Below, one piece after another: positions 1 to 28,134 of a stretch of 64,000 nt of DNA (its first letter is position 1; each line of letters opens with the position of its first letter). Made by a program: the position numbers and the translations under genes. The notes below the pieces were generated by a model. The model saw only the letters and a program-made list of their open reading frames with translations. It was not told the DNA's origin and did no database searches. Source of the DNA: an uncultured Spartobacteria bacterium (GTDB lineage Bacteria > Verrucomicrobiota > Verrucomicrobiia > Chthoniobacterales > Chthoniobacteraceae); NCBI GenBank assembly GCA_903882875.1, contig CAIRYQ010000115.1:1-64000 (forward strand), in the 5' to 3' direction.

Positions 1-26
1 CCGCACTCCCCGTTCCGCACTTCCAG

Positions 27-752
27 CTACAGCACGCGGATCTGCGCGGGGTCGCTCCAGAGGCCCATCACGCCCTTGAGGCCGACGGTGCGCACGCGCA
101 CCCACACGACGGTGCCGGGCGTGAGGCCCGTCAGCTCCGCGCGTCCGCCCTGGAACATCCCCTTGGTCGTCCAGTTCGCCTCCACGTTCGGGTCGCCGGT
201 GCAGGTCTGCACCTCGTTCGTGCTGCCTTGCCGGTCCGGCTTGTGGCGGGCGACGATGCCGCCGCTCTGGTCGCCGTGCGCCAGGCGGAGGTTCTGCGGC
301 GCGGCGGGCGCCGAAAAATCCGGCGGGTGCGCGGTGTCGTAGCTGGGGAACCCGCTCTGCTCCACGATCCCAGGGTCGCCCTTGGCGATGCTGTTGACGT
401 AGTTGCCGAGCACGCCGAGGGTTTCCTCCAGCGTGGCGCGCGCCGCGTTGAAGGCCACGATGTCCGCCTTTGCGTTGCTCGCGCGGGCGATGAGCTTTGC
501 GTCGTAGTCTGTGGCCTGTGTCAGCAGCGTCGCCATCGGCACGGCGGGCGTCGCGAAGGTCGCGACGCTGGCGAGCATCTTGTCGTGGATGGTGTGGGCG
601 GTGGGGCCGAGTTCGGCGGCGGTGTAGTCGCTGAAATCAATGATGGCTTTGGTGGTGTTCATGGCTTTGCGTTTTGGTTTCGCCAGACTGTCCCATGTGA
701 TGCCGGTGTCGTATGCGATCCCCGGCTGGTCCCATGTGTTCGGATCTGGCAT
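27..752 (-). CDS. Hypothetical protein with C-terminal fibronectin type III-like domain
   Basis: The 241-residue protein ends in an Fn3-like beta-sandwich from about residue 149. The strand pattern with LTGLTPGTVVWVRVR and a final WSDPAQIRVL is typical of Fn3. The middle (about 31-130) is alanine-rich and probably helical. No signal peptide is visible. An internal ATG at 660-662 (MNTTKAI) could be the real start; the 30 residues before it are rich in W, D and P and look like a separate short segment. Similar proteins with a helical N-terminus and Fn3 tail occur in Verrucomicrobia, but I know of no assigned function. The role could be surface adhesion or scaffolding; I cannot tell which. Confidence 0.7.
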   Translation of the reverse strand: MPDPNTWDQPGIAYDTGITWDSLAKPKRKAMNTTKAIIDFSDYTAAELGPTAHTIHDKMLASVATFATPAVPMATLLTQATDYDAKLIARASNAKADIVAFNAARATLEETLGVLGNYVNSIAKGDPGIVEQSGFPSYDTAHPPDFSAPAAPQNLRLAHGDQSGGIVARHKPDRQGSTNEVQTCTGDPNVEANWTTKGMFQGGRAELTGLTPGTVVWVRVRTVGLKGVMGLWSDPAQIRVL

Positions 753-820
753 GGTTGGGTTGTGGGATTAGTTGGCTTTCGAAGGAAGTGGGCCCGTGCG
801 GTTGGTTGGCAAAGCGCCTT

Positions 821-1032
821 TGAAAATAGCCCGGCGATTTATCGCTGGGTACGCGGTGCGGTGTGGACAAAGTCCCGCATGGGACGGCAGGACCGAGCGG
901 AGCGGGACGCCTGCCGGAAGGCATCCCCAGGGACGCACGCGGCGTTGCGCGGCAACCGGTTCTTCCGTCCCTGGCGGGACTTTGTTGCCTTCCTTCGGCG
1001 ATCCCCAGCGATGAATCGCTGGGCTATTTTCA
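821..1032. repeat. Large imperfect palindrome (REP/MITE-like element)
   Basis: The outer arms 821-850 and 1001-1032 are near-perfect inverted copies built on AAAATAGCCC-GCGATT-ATCGCTGGG. An inner pair (867-887 and 965-985) carries ACAAAGTCCCGC and its complement. Each outer arm also contains its own small palindrome around CAGCGAT-ATCGCTG. The whole 212 bp could fold into one long cruciform. No transposase is encoded, so it is either non-autonomous or a REP/BIME type repeat. Confidence 0.75.
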
Positions 1033-1090
1033 CCATGATTTCCCGCTGCGTTGTCATCGAACCGGACAGGCAGGGCAAACGGCTCTGGGG

Positions 1091-1237
1091 GATTGCCAAG
1101 AAGCCTGAGCCGATTGCCAAAAGGCCTGAGCCGATTGCCGAAAGGCCTGAGCCGATTGCCGAAAGACCTGAGCCGATTGCCAAAAGGCATGAGCCGATTG
1201 CCAAAAGCCCCGGCCCGATTGCCGCAAGTCTTGGGCA
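1091..1237. repeat. Tandem array of seven 21-bp units
   Basis: Seven consecutive units follow the pattern GATTGCC-AAAGGCCTGAGCC. The outer units are more diverged than the central ones. The period of 21 is a multiple of three, so every frame on both strands stays open and gives heptad peptides such as RPEPIAK (plus strand) or FGNRLRP (minus strand). No spacers separate the units, so it is not a CRISPR array. Whether any frame is translated is unknown. Confidence 0.85.
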
Positions 1238-1447
1238 AATGTGCCGGAAACACGCCCATTCCGGCCATTTCCCCGAGCCGATGCCGCAATCCCGCCCCGC
1301 TGCGCACTTCACCCTTCGCCCTGCGCGCCGCCCGGCGTGCCCGGCGCGGGCTCGCCTCGTGCGACGCCACGGCGGGGCTCGGCGGGAGCGGATTCCGGTG
1401 CTGGGGGTTCGTGCGTTGCATGGGTGCATTTCAGCATCCCTGCGGCG

Positions 1448-2161
1448 TCATGTCTCCGGCGGTTTACCGCCCGACGGTAAACCGGCGGGGCCCGTTTCCT
1501 CTTTTGCCCGGAAACTGCTCAGCAGGGCGTCCAGCGGCGCGCCGTCCTTGAGGCGGCGGAGGGCGTGGCTGAGAATGCGGATGAGCATGTGGCGGAATGT
1601 GCCCGGCGCGATGGGCTCCATGAAGGGCATCGCCGTCTCATTCCGCGCAATCGCCTCACCGAGGAGCATGATCCACCCGAGGGACACATGGATCGCCTGC
1701 GCGCCCTTTTTCTGCGTCTCCAGCCCCGTGCCCGCCGCGGCCCTTTCCATGCCGCCCAGCGTGCTGCGCGGAAAGGAGACCCCGGTGATGTCCTCCTGCG
1801 AATAGCCGAATCCCACGCGCAACTGCCGGAAGAGCCCGCCAAACCACCCGCACAGCCGGTCGCGCTCCGTCTTCGGGTCCACCGGCGGCGGCGCGGGAAC
1901 GGGCGGCACTTTTGCGGGGACAGGCTTCGCCTTTGCCGAAAGCGGCATCGGCTTTGCCGCGACGGGCTTTGCTTTGACAGGGGAACGCTTCGCCTTGACC
2001 GGGGACGGCTTCGCTTTTGCCTGCGAATGCTTCGCCTTAGCCTGGGAAGGCTTCGCTTTGGCTTGGGAAGGCTTCGCTTCAGCGTGGGAAGGCTTCGCCT
2101 TGGGCGCGACCTTCGCCACGGCCTTCGCAACCTTCGCGGCCTTGCTCGCCTTCCGCTTCAC
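1448..2161 (-). CDS. Lysine-rich H1-like tail fused to a degenerate Xre-type HTH domain
   Basis: The N-terminal ~110 of 237 residues are almost only K, A, P, S and V in a seven-residue rhythm (KAKPSQA, KAKPSPV), like histone H1-type tails and bacterial AlgP-like proteins. After a proline linker the sequence changes at about residue 115. The stretch YSQEDITGVSFPRSTLGGME resembles the turn and recognition helix of an Xre/Cro HTH and is followed by an amphipathic helix. DNA binding or nucleoid association is my inference. The C-terminal 25 residues are Gly/Pro-rich. The gene stands alone, divergent from the Roco gene across a 430-bp gap. Repeated codons in the tail produce 21-bp DNA repeats that may expand or contract. 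Confidence 0.72.
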   Translation of the reverse strand: MKRKASKAAKVAKAVAKVAPKAKPSHAEAKPSQAKAKPSQAKAKHSQAKAKPSPVKAKRSPVKAKPVAAKPMPLSAKAKPVPAKVPPVPAPPPVDPKTERDRLCGWFGGLFRQLRVGFGYSQEDITGVSFPRSTLGGMERAAAGTGLETQKKGAQAIHVSLGWIMLLGEAIARNETAMPFMEPIAPGTFRHMLIRILSHALRRLKDGAPLDALLSSFRAKEETGPAGLPSGGKPPET

Positions 2162-2272
2162 CCACCATCCGCCTCCCTTCCTCCGTTCGCTAGTGCCCGC
2201 GCCGCTCCCGAGCCCGGAGGCCCGGTGACGACGGCTGCGGAACCCTGCGGCAATCCCCCGCGCGCCAGCGAA

Positions 2273-2305
2273 GCACGGCTGTGCGGCGGCGACGCACAGC
2301 CGTGC
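2273..2305. repeat. Perfect 13-bp inverted repeat with 7-nt loop
   Basis: The arms GCACGGCTGTGCG (2273-2285) and CGCACAGCCGTGC (2293-2305) are exact complements around a 7-base loop. No T-run follows on either strand, so a Rho-independent terminator is unlikely. It is more likely a REP-like palindrome or a protein-binding site between the divergent genes. Confidence 0.7.
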
Positions 2306-2412
2306 GCGGGGTGAAGTTCGTTGGGAGCTGCTTCATGGGAGGGAACCTTTCCTGCAGAGATGTTGCCCGTGTCATTTCGGTGCGCAAGCGGAAAAATGGC
2401 GGAGCGCGCCGC

Positions 2413-2504
2413 CTCCGTAGCCGCGCTTGTGAAAGCGCGGGCACTCCTTTGCAGGCGAACTCGGAAGGATCAGCCCACGCTCTCACGAGGCGCGGCTACG
2501 GAGC
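2413..2504. repeat. Imperfect inverted repeat, arms about 26 bp
   Basis: The left arm near 2413-2437 (CTCCGTAGCCGCGC, then TGTGAAAGCG) pairs with the right arm 2478-2503, whose complement reads CTCCGTAGCCGCGCCTCGTG. The loop is about 40 bases. This resembles the dispersed palindromes often found between verrucomicrobial genes; that comparison is from memory. It sits about 90 bp before the Roco start codon. Confidence 0.65.
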
Positions 2505-2594
2505 AGGCCCCGCCGAAACACCCGCGGAGCGACGCGTCCCACCCTGCGGGCTTGACACGCCCCGCTCCCTCCGCCAGCAACGCCCCACCCGCCC

Positions 2595-5294
2595 ATGCCA
2601 CCTCCGAAGATGAATGCGAAGGAACAGGAAGCCTATGACGAGGCGCTGCGGCGCATCGAGGAATGTCGGCTGAAGGGGAAGGAGGGGACCGATCTCAATT
2701 TGATTGGGTTGGGTCTCACGATGCTGCCGCCGCAGATCAGCCAGCTCATGTGGCTGTTGAGGCTTCACCTCAACGAAAACCAGCTCACGACGCTTCCGCC
2801 GGAGATCGCCAAGCTCACAGCGCTTCAGGCGCTTTTCCTCCAGCGAAACCAGCTCACGACCCTGCCGCCGGAGATTTGCCAACTAACGGCGCTCACTGTG
2901 CTTTCCCTCCAAGGCAACAAGCTCACAACGCTTCCGCCGGAGATCGCCCAGCTCACGGAGCTGAGGGACCTTTCCCTCAACTCCAACCAACTCACGGCGC
3001 TGCCGCCTGAGTTCGTCAAGCTTTCGTTGCTATGGGGGCTTCACCTCGACAACAACCCGCTCACGACGCTGCCTCCGGAGATCGTCCAGCTTTCGGCGCT
3101 GATGGAGCTTGACCTCAGCGGCAACCAGCTCACGACGCTGCCTCCGGAGATCGGGCGGCTCGTGAACTTGGAACGTCTCAACCTTGAGGACAATGCCCTG
3201 CGCGAACTGCCGGAAAGCCTGAAGGGACTTTCAAAGCTGAGAGCGCTTTTCCTGCATGGAAATGACGCGCTCGGCCTGCCAGCCGAGGTGCTGGGGCAGA
3301 TATGGTTCGGTTCTGGCCCAGAGAAACCCCCGGCGAAGCCGCAGGAGATTCTCCGCTACTACTTCGCCCAACGGGAAGGAAAGCGGCGACCGCTGAATGA
3401 GGTGAAGGTGCTGGTGGTGGGCGAGAGCGAGGTGGGGAAGACATCGCTCATCCGGCAACTGCGGGGCGAGGCCCACGATCCCAAGCAGGATAAGACGCAC
3501 GGGATCGAGCGGCACCGGGTTCCGATGAAGTGCGGGAGGCTCGGGGACGTCCGGCTGAACGTGTGGGACTTCGGCGGGCAGGACATCATGCACGCGACGC
3601 ACCAGTTTTTCCTCACGCGACGGAGCGTGTACCTGCTGGTGCTGGACAGCCGGCAGAACGAGCGCCAGAGCCGGATTGACTACTGGCTGCGGCTCATTGC
3701 GTCCTTCGGCGGGGACTCGCCGGTGATCGTGGTATGCAACAAGGCGGACCAGCAGGTGATGCAACTGAACTGGACGGGCCTCCAGCGGGAATACCCGCAG
3801 ATTGCGGGATTCGCGAAGGAGGTGTGCTGCTACCACTATGGAGAAGTGGATCGGCGCAGGGGGCTGGACGAACTGAAGGAGCAGATCGCCGAGGCGGTGG
3901 CGAATGATGTGAAGGAGGTGGATAAGCCGATCCTGGAGAGCTGGCTGGATTTGAAGGACGAGCTGGAGACGGACGGACGGCCCTTCATCTCGCTGCAGCA
4001 GTATCACCGGCTCGCGAAGACGCGGGGCATCAAGACCAAGGAGGATCGTGAGATATTACTAACGCTGATGCACGGGCTGGGCAGCGTGTTGCATTTCAGC
4101 GAGCACGCGATCTTCGAGAAGGAACGGGATGCCAATGCGGCACCTGCGGATGTGGAGGAGTTGAACGTGCTCGATCCCGGCTGGGTGACGGAGGCGATCT
4201 ACAAGCTGCTGAATGACGCAACGCTGATCCGCGCAGGAGGCGTGATGACGCGCGGGGACATGCGCCGTTCGCTGGCGGAACTGCCGGGCGGCAGCGAACG
4301 GTACCCGAAGGACAAGGAGGATTTCATCATCGCGATGATGCGGCGCTTTGAGATCTGCTTTCCTTTCGACGGGGAGGCGGACCGGTGGTTCCTGCCGGAT
4401 CTGCTGCACAAGGATGAAGTGGACACCGGGGACTGGAAGGAGGCGCTGGGCTTCCGTTACAAGTACACGGTGCTGCCCACGAGTGTGATGGGGCGATTGA
4501 TGGTGCGGCTTCACTGGGTCATCGCGAATCGCTGCCTGTGGAGGACCGGGGCGAAGTTCAAACGGGGTGCGTGCGAAGCGCTGGTGCGCAGCGAGCCGGA
4601 AGATGCACGGGTGGACATCCGCATCCGCGGTGGCGACGGGCGTGCGAGGAGGGAATTCCTGGCGGTCATCCGGGAGGCGCTGGCGGCCATCCATGCGTCA
4701 TTCAGCGGGAATCTCGCGGTGGAGGAGAAGGTGCCAGTACCGGGACAGGAGGAAGCCTTCCTCGACTACGAGACGCTTCTGCTGCTTGAAGGCAACGGGA
4801 CGGCGACGACTGCGGTGAAGGTGAACGGACAGCTCGTAACGGTGAACGTAATGGAGGCGCTGGATGGGGTGACGGAGGAGAACGCCCGCCTCCCGGAAAG
4901 GCTCCGGCTCGAGCGGAAGGGCTTTTTGGAACGTGTGGATCGGAAATTGCGGACGACGGCGGAGGAGCTACAACACGACATTGATCGACAAAACCATTGG
5001 CTAAGAATGGCGGGCTTGATCATCTGCGCAGTCATTGCGCTGACTTGCCTGGTGGGCGGCGTTTTCATTTCCATTTGGAAAGCCAGCGCGAATAACGAAA
5101 GTGGGGATAAGCAAAGCAGCCTAAAGATTGGAAGCTGGACGCTCAAAACATCGCAAGATGGGCTAATGCTTGCGGCCATTGGAATCTTGCCGGCGTTCTT
5201 TGTCGTGAATTCCGTGCTCGGAAACCAACGGAATCAGACGCGTTCACAGAGTCTGCAACGGCAAAAGAACGCGCGGGCGAAGGGCAAGGGATAG
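2595..5294 (+). CDS. Roco-family protein: LRR-Roc GTPase-COR with C-terminal membrane anchor
   Basis: The 899-residue protein starts with eight to nine leucine-rich repeats of 23 residues (about residues 35-245, consensus LTTLPPEI). A Ras-like Roc GTPase follows, with P-loop GESEVGKT at 276-283, DFGGQ at 325-329 and NKAD at 382-385. The COR dimerisation region fills about 430-700. Two hydrophobic segments near 805-830 and 856-876 suggest anchoring in the inner membrane; most bacterial Roco proteins known to me are soluble. Roco proteins are dimeric GTPases, and bacterial roles are largely unknown. A second in-frame ATG at residue 6 could be the true start. The gene is not in an operon. Confidence 0.93.
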   Translation: MPPPKMNAKEQEAYDEALRRIEECRLKGKEGTDLNLIGLGLTMLPPQISQLMWLLRLHLNENQLTTLPPEIAKLTALQALFLQRNQLTTLPPEICQLTALTVLSLQGNKLTTLPPEIAQLTELRDLSLNSNQLTALPPEFVKLSLLWGLHLDNNPLTTLPPEIVQLSALMELDLSGNQLTTLPPEIGRLVNLERLNLEDNALRELPESLKGLSKLRALFLHGNDALGLPAEVLGQIWFGSGPEKPPAKPQEILRYYFAQREGKRRPLNEVKVLVVGESEVGKTSLIRQLRGEAHDPKQDKTHGIERHRVPMKCGRLGDVRLNVWDFGGQDIMHATHQFFLTRRSVYLLVLDSRQNERQSRIDYWLRLIASFGGDSPVIVVCNKADQQVMQLNWTGLQREYPQIAGFAKEVCCYHYGEVDRRRGLDELKEQIAEAVANDVKEVDKPILESWLDLKDELETDGRPFISLQQYHRLAKTRGIKTKEDREILLTLMHGLGSVLHFSEHAIFEKERDANAAPADVEELNVLDPGWVTEAIYKLLNDATLIRAGGVMTRGDMRRSLAELPGGSERYPKDKEDFIIAMMRRFEICFPFDGEADRWFLPDLLHKDEVDTGDWKEALGFRYKYTVLPTSVMGRLMVRLHWVIANRCLWRTGAKFKRGACEALVRSEPEDARVDIRIRGGDGRARREFLAVIREALAAIHASFSGNLAVEEKVPVPGQEEAFLDYETLLLLEGNGTATTAVKVNGQLVTVNVMEALDGVTEENARLPERLRLERKGFLERVDRKLRTTAEELQHDIDRQNHWLRMAGLIICAVIALTCLVGGVFISIWKASANNESGDKQSSLKIGSWTLKTSQDGLMLAAIGILPAFFVVNSVLGNQRNQTRSQSLQRQKNARAKGKG

Positions 5295-8143: not shown

Positions 8144-8240
8144 GGGCGCGGAGACAAGCGGGCCGCCCGCCTGAAGGCGAGGAGGAATCGCTGGCAGGGC
8201 TTACGCATCAAAATGACGCTGGCGTGGGAGCGCGACGCTT

Positions 8241-8425
8241 GGGTGGAGCACGCGACTCGCGTGCTGTTTCCGGCGACCCGCCGGGAACACCGCGTGACGG
8301 GTGAGCAACCGCACAGGATCACCAAATCTGTGTGTCATCAAATCTGCACGCCGATTGCAAACACACATGCATCGGGTGTCTGCGGCGAGTCGCCGCAGAC
8401 CGCACGCGAGTCGCGTGCTCCACCC
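8241..8425 (+). repeat. 185-bp palindromic element, copy 1
   Basis: The element begins GGGTGGAGCACGCGACTCGC and ends with the matching inverted sequence. Inner arms carry GTTTCCGGCGACCCGCCGG on the left and GTCTGCGGCGAGTCGCCGCAG on the left side of the right arm. The centre reads CCAAATCTGTGTGTCATCAA. A second copy of identical length lies at 27801-27985 in reverse orientation. One frame is open through each copy in the same relative position. The structure fits a non-autonomous mobile palindrome. It fills much of the 372-bp gap 8144-8515, where I see no gene. Confidence 0.85.
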
Positions 8426-8515
8426 GAAAGCTGGTGCTCGCCGCTGCCACGATTTTGGTGATCGCGAAGGCGGATGACGGACAAACGGCAGGCTTGGTCT
8501 GTCCGGCGGACGCGA

Positions 8516-27800: not shown

Positions 27801-27985
27801 GGGTGGAGCACCCGACTCGGGTGCTGTCTGCGGCCACTGGCCGCAGACACTCGACGCGCGTATGTTCGTGATTGGCTCACAAATCTGACGACACACAGAT
27901 TTGGAAGTGCTGAGTGTTTGCCCATGCGCCACGAAGTGTTTCCGGCGGGTCGCCGGAAACAGCACGCGAGTCGCGTGCTCCACCC
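27801..27985 (-). repeat. 185-bp palindromic element, copy 2 (reverse orientation)
   Basis: Reading the minus strand, this copy begins GGGTGGAGCACGCGACTCGC and continues through the same inner arms and the same centre (CCAAATCTGTGTGTCGTCAG) as the copy at 8241-8425. Length is also 185 bp. It lies 12 bp after the methyltransferase stop codon. The rest of the gap to 28134 shows no gene. Confidence 0.85.
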
Positions 27986-28134
27986 GGGAGCCCGCGCCGG
28001 TCACCGACGTGATTTTGATTCGTGAACCCCGGCGATCCGGGAGAAAGTGCTTGTCTTGACTTGGCTCAAATTCCACGTTCCCGCGCTTTTCTAAGGAGCT
28101 CCACTTCCGCCCCTCTCATTCATTCACGATCTCC

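Follow-up and report, generated by a model that had tools for sequence, protein, structure and literature searches.

The window, by which we mean the whole 64-kb stretch of DNA analysed here, carries two copies of a palindromic element at 8241-8425 and 27801-27985, each exactly 185 nt long and lying in opposite orientation, just as the first-pass annotation had recorded. Both are intergenic: copy 1 lies between the start of an amino-acid permease gene (8143) and the end of a DUF6797 gene (8516), both on the minus strand, and copy 2 between the end of a methyltransferase gene (27789) and the start of an epimerase gene (28135), both on the plus strand. Their parts are as follows:

8197..8240, no strand: copy 1, left outer arm of subfamily A
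8241..8425, plus strand: copy 1, core palindrome of 185 bp
8242..8289, plus strand: copy 1, first end unit, with the foot GGTGGAG, hairpin 1 at 8248-8264 and hairpin 2 at 8266-8288
8290..8376, no strand: copy 1, non-coding linker with conserved AAATCTG motifs
8377..8424, minus strand: copy 1, second end unit, inverted, with hairpin 1 at 8402-8418 and hairpin 2 at 8378-8400
8426..8466, no strand: copy 1, right outer arm of subfamily A
27801..27985, minus strand: copy 2, core palindrome of 185 bp, in the orientation opposite to copy 1
27802..27849, plus strand: copy 2, end unit, with hairpin 1 at 27808-27824 and hairpin 2 at 27826-27848
27937..27984, minus strand: copy 2, other end unit, inverted, with hairpin 1 at 27962-27978 and hairpin 2 at 27938-27960
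27986..28029, no strand: copy 2, sole preserved outer arm, of subfamily A

Taken as reverse complements, the two copies are 82% identical over their full length with no gaps, and the alignment displays inverted ends of 51 nt in each, in keeping with the terminal inverted repeats described earlier. The end motif GGGTGGAGCACGCGACTCGCGTGCT has four matches in the window at up to three mismatches, whereas the expectation estimated by shuffling dinucleotides 100 times is 0.00, and in one end of copy 2 the sequence has a compensated change, reading GGGTGGAGCACCCGACTCGGGTGCT. The length of exactly 185 bp holds for the core but not as the limit of the element: similarity runs on into arms of about 40 nt (TGACGCATCAAAATC ... 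GATTTTGATGCGTCA), of which copy 1 has one at each end and copy 2 a single one, and the shared unit with these subfamily-specific arms comes to about 270 bp. Outside the arms the flanks are unlike and the two copies share nothing; therefore, they are not parts of a larger duplicated segment, the eventuality that the first-pass annotation had raised against its own reading.

Other repeats lie nearby in the window. A second palindrome at 821-1040 (TGAAAATAGCCCGGCGATTTATCGCTGGG ... GTCCCGCATGGGACGG ... inverted) is unrelated to the 185-bp family. Its hairpins match at 93-96% those flanking a gene for a REP-associated tyrosine transposase (RAYT), an HUH/Y1 enzyme of the IS200/IS605 superfamily, at G000:C92:13522-13872 (G000 being the window's own genome); hence, a partner for the 821-1040 palindrome is present in that genome. 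Tandem repeats occupy 1091-1223, 1911-2103 and 2715-3220, with units of 21 bp (GATTGCCAAAAGGCCTGAGCC), of 21/42/63 bp and of 69 bp, the last of which resemble coding leucine-rich repeats.

Each end of the 185-bp element is a 48-nt unit with the GTRG-type foot GGTGGAG, laid out as GGTGGA followed by two stem-loops, the first of 7 bp and the second of 10 bp, each with a loop of 3 nt and separated by a single free base, and this geometry is fixed across 141 unique ends. The foot has G2 in 137 of these, T3 in 132, G4 in 132 (A4 in 9) and G5 in all 141, thereby conforming to the pattern GT[AG]G, and two such REP-like ends in inverted orientation make up the arrangement by which REP/REPIN elements are recognized. 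Foot and hairpin 1 together measure 23 nt, within the 20-40-nt size of REPs; however, where the textbook REP is a single palindrome of 20-40 nt, the conserved unit here is a double hairpin that reaches 48 nt with its second stem. The arms of these hairpins show the compensatory changes that the first-pass annotation had suggested looking for: in an alignment of 53 distinct ends, picked in register from 30 elements, 9 of the 17 pairs are changed on both sides and 99.0% of the cells are paired. The covariation score of these 53 ends is 0.366 against 0.102 for shuffled alignments (none of 500 shuffles scoring as high), and pairing drops to 28-52% once the partner is shifted by 1-3 columns. Across all 141 unique ends, pairing stands at 97% for hairpin 1 and 91% for hairpin 2, with 89% and 74% in the respective shuffles. 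The sequence of hairpin 2 is usually unlike between the two ends of one element, as with the TTTCCGG and TCTGCGG types of subfamily A.

The 61-codon frame VEHATRVLFPATRR, earlier remarked upon as being kept in both copies, is indeed open in both, on the plus strand of copy 1 and the minus strand of copy 2, but it has no special status. Open frames number 4.1 of 6 across 73 copies and still 3.5 of 6 when the linker is shuffled with the hairpins kept, and core lengths are evenly spread over the three classes modulo 3. Because the hairpin ends hold few stop codons, the frame is a by-product; with its openness persisting in shuffled linkers, this VEHATRV frame was rejected as a gene.

A whole-genome search recovered further copies in the window's own genome (5.78 Mb in 129 contigs), namely about six long copies plus fragments by DNA search and, by pattern searches, shorter deletion forms in which scarcely more than GGGTGGAGCACGCGACTCGCGTGCTCCACCC is left; end units were also found in 14 other genomes of the family. 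Arms of the TGACGCATCAAAATC... type occur in copies of G000, G026, G027 and G029. A younger subfamily B of G029 has unrelated arms (ATACGATT...) in dispersed units of about 270 bp whose arms are near-identical, and the core of G021 has no arms at all, only (T)CCG being conserved outside it. Since the arms are unrelated in the G029 subfamily and absent in G021, the core is the common denominator and the arms are specific to subfamilies. Several subfamilies bear outer arms of 40-55 nt with imperfect inverted repeats of their own; such arms would be superfluous for a plain REPIN, and the composites could be amplified by another transposase. A 78-bp palindrome of G029 consists of arms only; it was rejected as an empty site in favor of a deletion, there being GCCCTT microhomology at the joint, and the short and arms-only forms are altogether best read as deletions. 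An extra palindrome of about 105 bp (GACGCAGAGGCGCGGAG ... CTCCGCGCCTCTGCGTT), nested in the linkers of L133, L135, L136, L137 (G026) and L166 (G027), is apparently a different repeat family inserted into the 185-bp element.

A search of 40 genomes of the family with PF01797 for the transposase partner turned up the autonomous relative of RAYT type that the first-pass annotation had thought worth seeking, in two genomes and flanked by the same inverted ends. On G021:C224, two ends of the family, 601 bp apart, enclose a RAYT, and the entire element sits in frame within recG; on G029:C13, the same ends flank a RAYT in a 664-bp element, likewise in frame within recG. In the Pfam annotation, Y1_Tnp is preceded by the DEAD half and followed by the Helicase_C/RecG_dom3 part of a single open frame, and RecG has one match per genome. 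The HxH motif, the tyrosine and the NP are invariant in 15 of 15 RAYTs, and the AlphaFold2 model of the RecG-resident RAYT (pLDDT 83.6) has as its top PDB match 4er8, the structure of a RAYT in complex with a REP hairpin (E=1.9e-7, TM 0.70). Comparison of empty and filled sites found recG in different states in different genomes: G029, G021 and G020 have a filled site, that of G020 with different ends; G027 has one end as an in-frame scar; and the site is empty in G000, G026, G028, G033 and others. The window's own genome, which is 96% complete, yielded no RecG-clade RAYT, and because its recG is also empty, the window copies look orphaned; they are probably relics whose RAYT would have been lost or would reside in a sister lineage. 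The RAYTs that this genome does encode on C92, C120 and C3 were rejected as partners, as there are no ends of the family within about 1.5 kb of them, and the one on C92 goes with a different palindrome family.

A covariance model of the end, applied to the 40 family genomes with up to 150 candidates scored per genome, gave matches in at least 15 of the 40. The ends number at least 95 in G021, 54 in G029, 45 in G026, 44 in G027, 23 in G037, 17 in G024, 15 in G017, 13 in the window's own genome and 12 in G020, with fewer in others. The best E-values are far weaker in G037, G017, G020 and G024, and hence the ends of these genomes may belong to sister families. A lone Myxococcota match (L206), devoid of a partner end, was judged by eye to be due to chance. 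Among the matches listed, the seven genomes with a RecG-clade RAYT have 7-95 ends and the remaining 33 have 0-23, and the end count is associated with the presence of such a RAYT (Mann-Whitney p=6e-6; within the genus p=0.012; kinship ignored in both). Ends are present in G037, G017 and G000, in which a RecG-clade RAYT was not detected.

Taken together, the further copies, the same ends on RAYT elements of two relatives and the varied state of the recG sites support the earlier conjecture that the palindrome is mobile but non-autonomous and has a partner of RAYT type. We propose, with a probability of roughly 0.8, that the element is a non-autonomous REPIN/BIME-like palindrome with double-hairpin ends, mobilized in trans by a RAYT. 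Recognition of foot and hairpins on single strands and mobilization in trans belong to the established knowledge of RAYTs and of the IS200/IS605 superfamily. In the present element, two inverted end units, each with a GTRG-type foot and two small hairpins, enclose a non-coding linker; by analogy, the RAYT, in this case the one in recG, would recognize the foot and hairpins of its own ends and thereby also mobilize the palindromes, which would move in trans as single-stranded DNA folded into the end hairpins.

Alternatively, the outer arms (subfamily A: CAGGGCTGACGCATCAAAATC; G029 subfamily B: ATACGATT...) might be the terminal inverted repeats of a MITE of a DDE transposon, with the core as a passenger or an insertion. 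The sharing of arms by many copies, the dispersal of the G029 units with their near-identical arms and the arms-only palindrome of that genome agree with such an origin, but the core is common to subfamilies with unrelated arms and stands free of them in G021, while the microhomology at the arms-only joint is what a deletion predicts. Further, direct repeats of 5 bp or more, the signature of target-site duplication, flank the core boundaries in 0 of 28 G021 copies, and visual inspection of the subfamily B arm boundaries in G029 revealed none; we regard a DDE-type MITE as unlikely. The other option of the first-pass annotation, a structured RNA family whose hairpins act in transcripts as a riboregulator, terminator or mRNA stabilizer, would attribute the covariation to selection on RNA. 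It could draw on the very strong compensatory changes in both hairpins and on the position of the window copies between co-directional genes, where they may be transcribed. However, the same hairpins terminate a transposase-bearing element; the palindromic element is near-symmetric on both strands and is present inside coding genes; the number of ends per relative varies from 0 to at least 95; Rfam had no match at the gathering threshold in window positions 7900-28300; and covariation is also expected from a DNA hairpin that serves as a transposase substrate or from inverted repeats correcting each other. Such an RNA family is not needed where the covarying hairpins are the ends of a DNA element, and we deem it highly improbable.

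A cellular role, such as in DNA-binding or mRNA-end sites, has been proposed for the BIMEs of E. coli, and former RAYT elements might similarly be kept by the present host for a function of its own. Copies do persist, with hairpins still well paired, in a genome lacking the cognate RAYT, but they are few there, several are truncated or collapsed, and their arms are decaying as in relics, and such retention is much less likely than the REPIN/BIME-like reading preferred here.

That reading places the element among systems already known as REPs, BIMEs, REPINs and RAYTs (PMC2817692, PMC3116915, PMC3733652, PMC6006769), with which it has in common the inverted palindromic ends with a GTRG foot and the mostly non-coding, dispersed copies. 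Also alike are the RAYT gene lying between two of these inverted ends and having the HUH motif and catalytic tyrosine (in G029 and G021, not in the window's own genome), and the lack of target-site duplication in the G021 copies. Unlike in REPINs and BIMEs, there are two successive hairpins per end (7 bp and 10 bp), a linker of about 85 bp, subfamily-specific outer arms and a cognate RAYT in frame within recG. Double-foot REPs are known from TnpA-Y1 subclass 2.4, their proposed origin being the central deletion of an inverted REP dimer (PMC6006769). This origin fits the 31-bp short forms GGTGGAG ... CTCCACC, which have a foot at both ends; here, however, these are a minority derivative of the 185-bp double-hairpin element. 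Intragenic in-frame REPs have likewise been described, many of them in Opitutus terrae, also a member of the Verrucomicrobia, DNA repair genes being frequent hosts and tRNA synthetases occasional ones (PMC3733652). Common to both is the presence of palindromes within coding genes with the frame intact, whereas in our case the in-frame insert includes the RAYT gene, a kind of insert absent from the part of that account considered. What sets the element apart from the known systems is the double-hairpin end and the RAYT gene in frame within housekeeping genes; given a limited literature search, we rate it as a variant within the known REP/RAYT kind.

Residence inside genes extends to all close relatives of the RecG-resident RAYT that were found. 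At E<1e-40, the family has nine RAYTs of this clade, the frames that hold them measuring 463-1287 aa with the shortest cut by or near a contig edge, and their hosts, identified by Pfam or by sequence reading, are RecG (three), AlaRS (three, in G026, G029 and G032), ThrRS, an HsdM-like methylase and PriA; no genome has more than one AlaRS match. Six more were added at the same threshold by a sample of 288 genomes from the phylum, in frames of 730-1316 aa within AlaRS (four) and RecG (two), these hosts being assigned from conserved motifs read in the sequence and not by Pfam. Thus, 15 of 15 close relatives lie in long frames. All nine in-gene RAYTs of the family have, by sequence and folds, ends with a GTRG-like foot and the two-hairpin layout, and the feet of the other in-gene members of the clade read GTAG, GTGG or GGAG. 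For six of the nine elements, the minimum-energy fold contains both hairpins at one end or at both; for the remaining three (those in the HsdM-like gene and in AlaRS of G026 and G032), it contains hairpin 2, and hairpin 1 can be recognized only as an inverted repeat in the sequence. More distant RAYTs likewise sit in frame within other genes: ClpB is the host in four genomes (G026, G029, G039 and G032; L290, L296, L301 and L302), CarB in G020 (L299) and HsdR in G009 (L306).

Palindromes without a RAYT also sit in frame, in a CusA-type pump (G021, G029) and in an FtsX permease and a GDSL hydrolase frame (G021), and a single Pfam ACR_tran match spans the insert in the G021 pump. The palindromes in the CusA-type pumps of G021 and G029 (L163, ORF 1-2499, plus strand; L277, ORF 327-3587, minus strand) are apparently at the same loop. 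The AlaRS of the window's own genome (L416, G000:C68) has an in-frame tandem repeat of more than ten GGASSPT-like units. Rickettsia palindromic elements (RPEs) resemble some copies of our family, though neither window copy, in being palindromes in frame within protein genes, but we know of no transposase for RPEs, whereas a RAYT with the same ends was found here. A search confined to open-licence papers yielded no description of a RAYT or transposase in frame inside RecG, ClpB or AlaRS, which is weak evidence of absence. One survey discarded unexpectedly long TnpA-Y1 proteins as gene fusions or annotation errors (PMC6006769), and in-gene RAYTs may thereby have been set aside.

In conclusion, an anonymous palindrome family is now tied to a specific transposase, and its double-hairpin REP ends with their unusually clean covariation make recognition by the RAYT directly testable. 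Beyond this, we consider it fairly likely that a clade of Verrucomicrobiota RAYTs has specialized for in-frame life in recG, alaS, thrS, priA and an HsdM-like gene, fused to a host protein that is not disabled, and that it sheds double-hairpin palindromes, which can sit in frame elsewhere. If true, this would be an intein-like niche without splicing, occupied by an HUH transposase. The catalytic residues are retained in the RAYTs of this clade, which lie in frame in housekeeping genes, including a single-copy alanyl-tRNA synthetase. This raises the testable questions of how a transposase is expressed from within a housekeeping protein that still works and whether its host gene guards the transposon against deletion.
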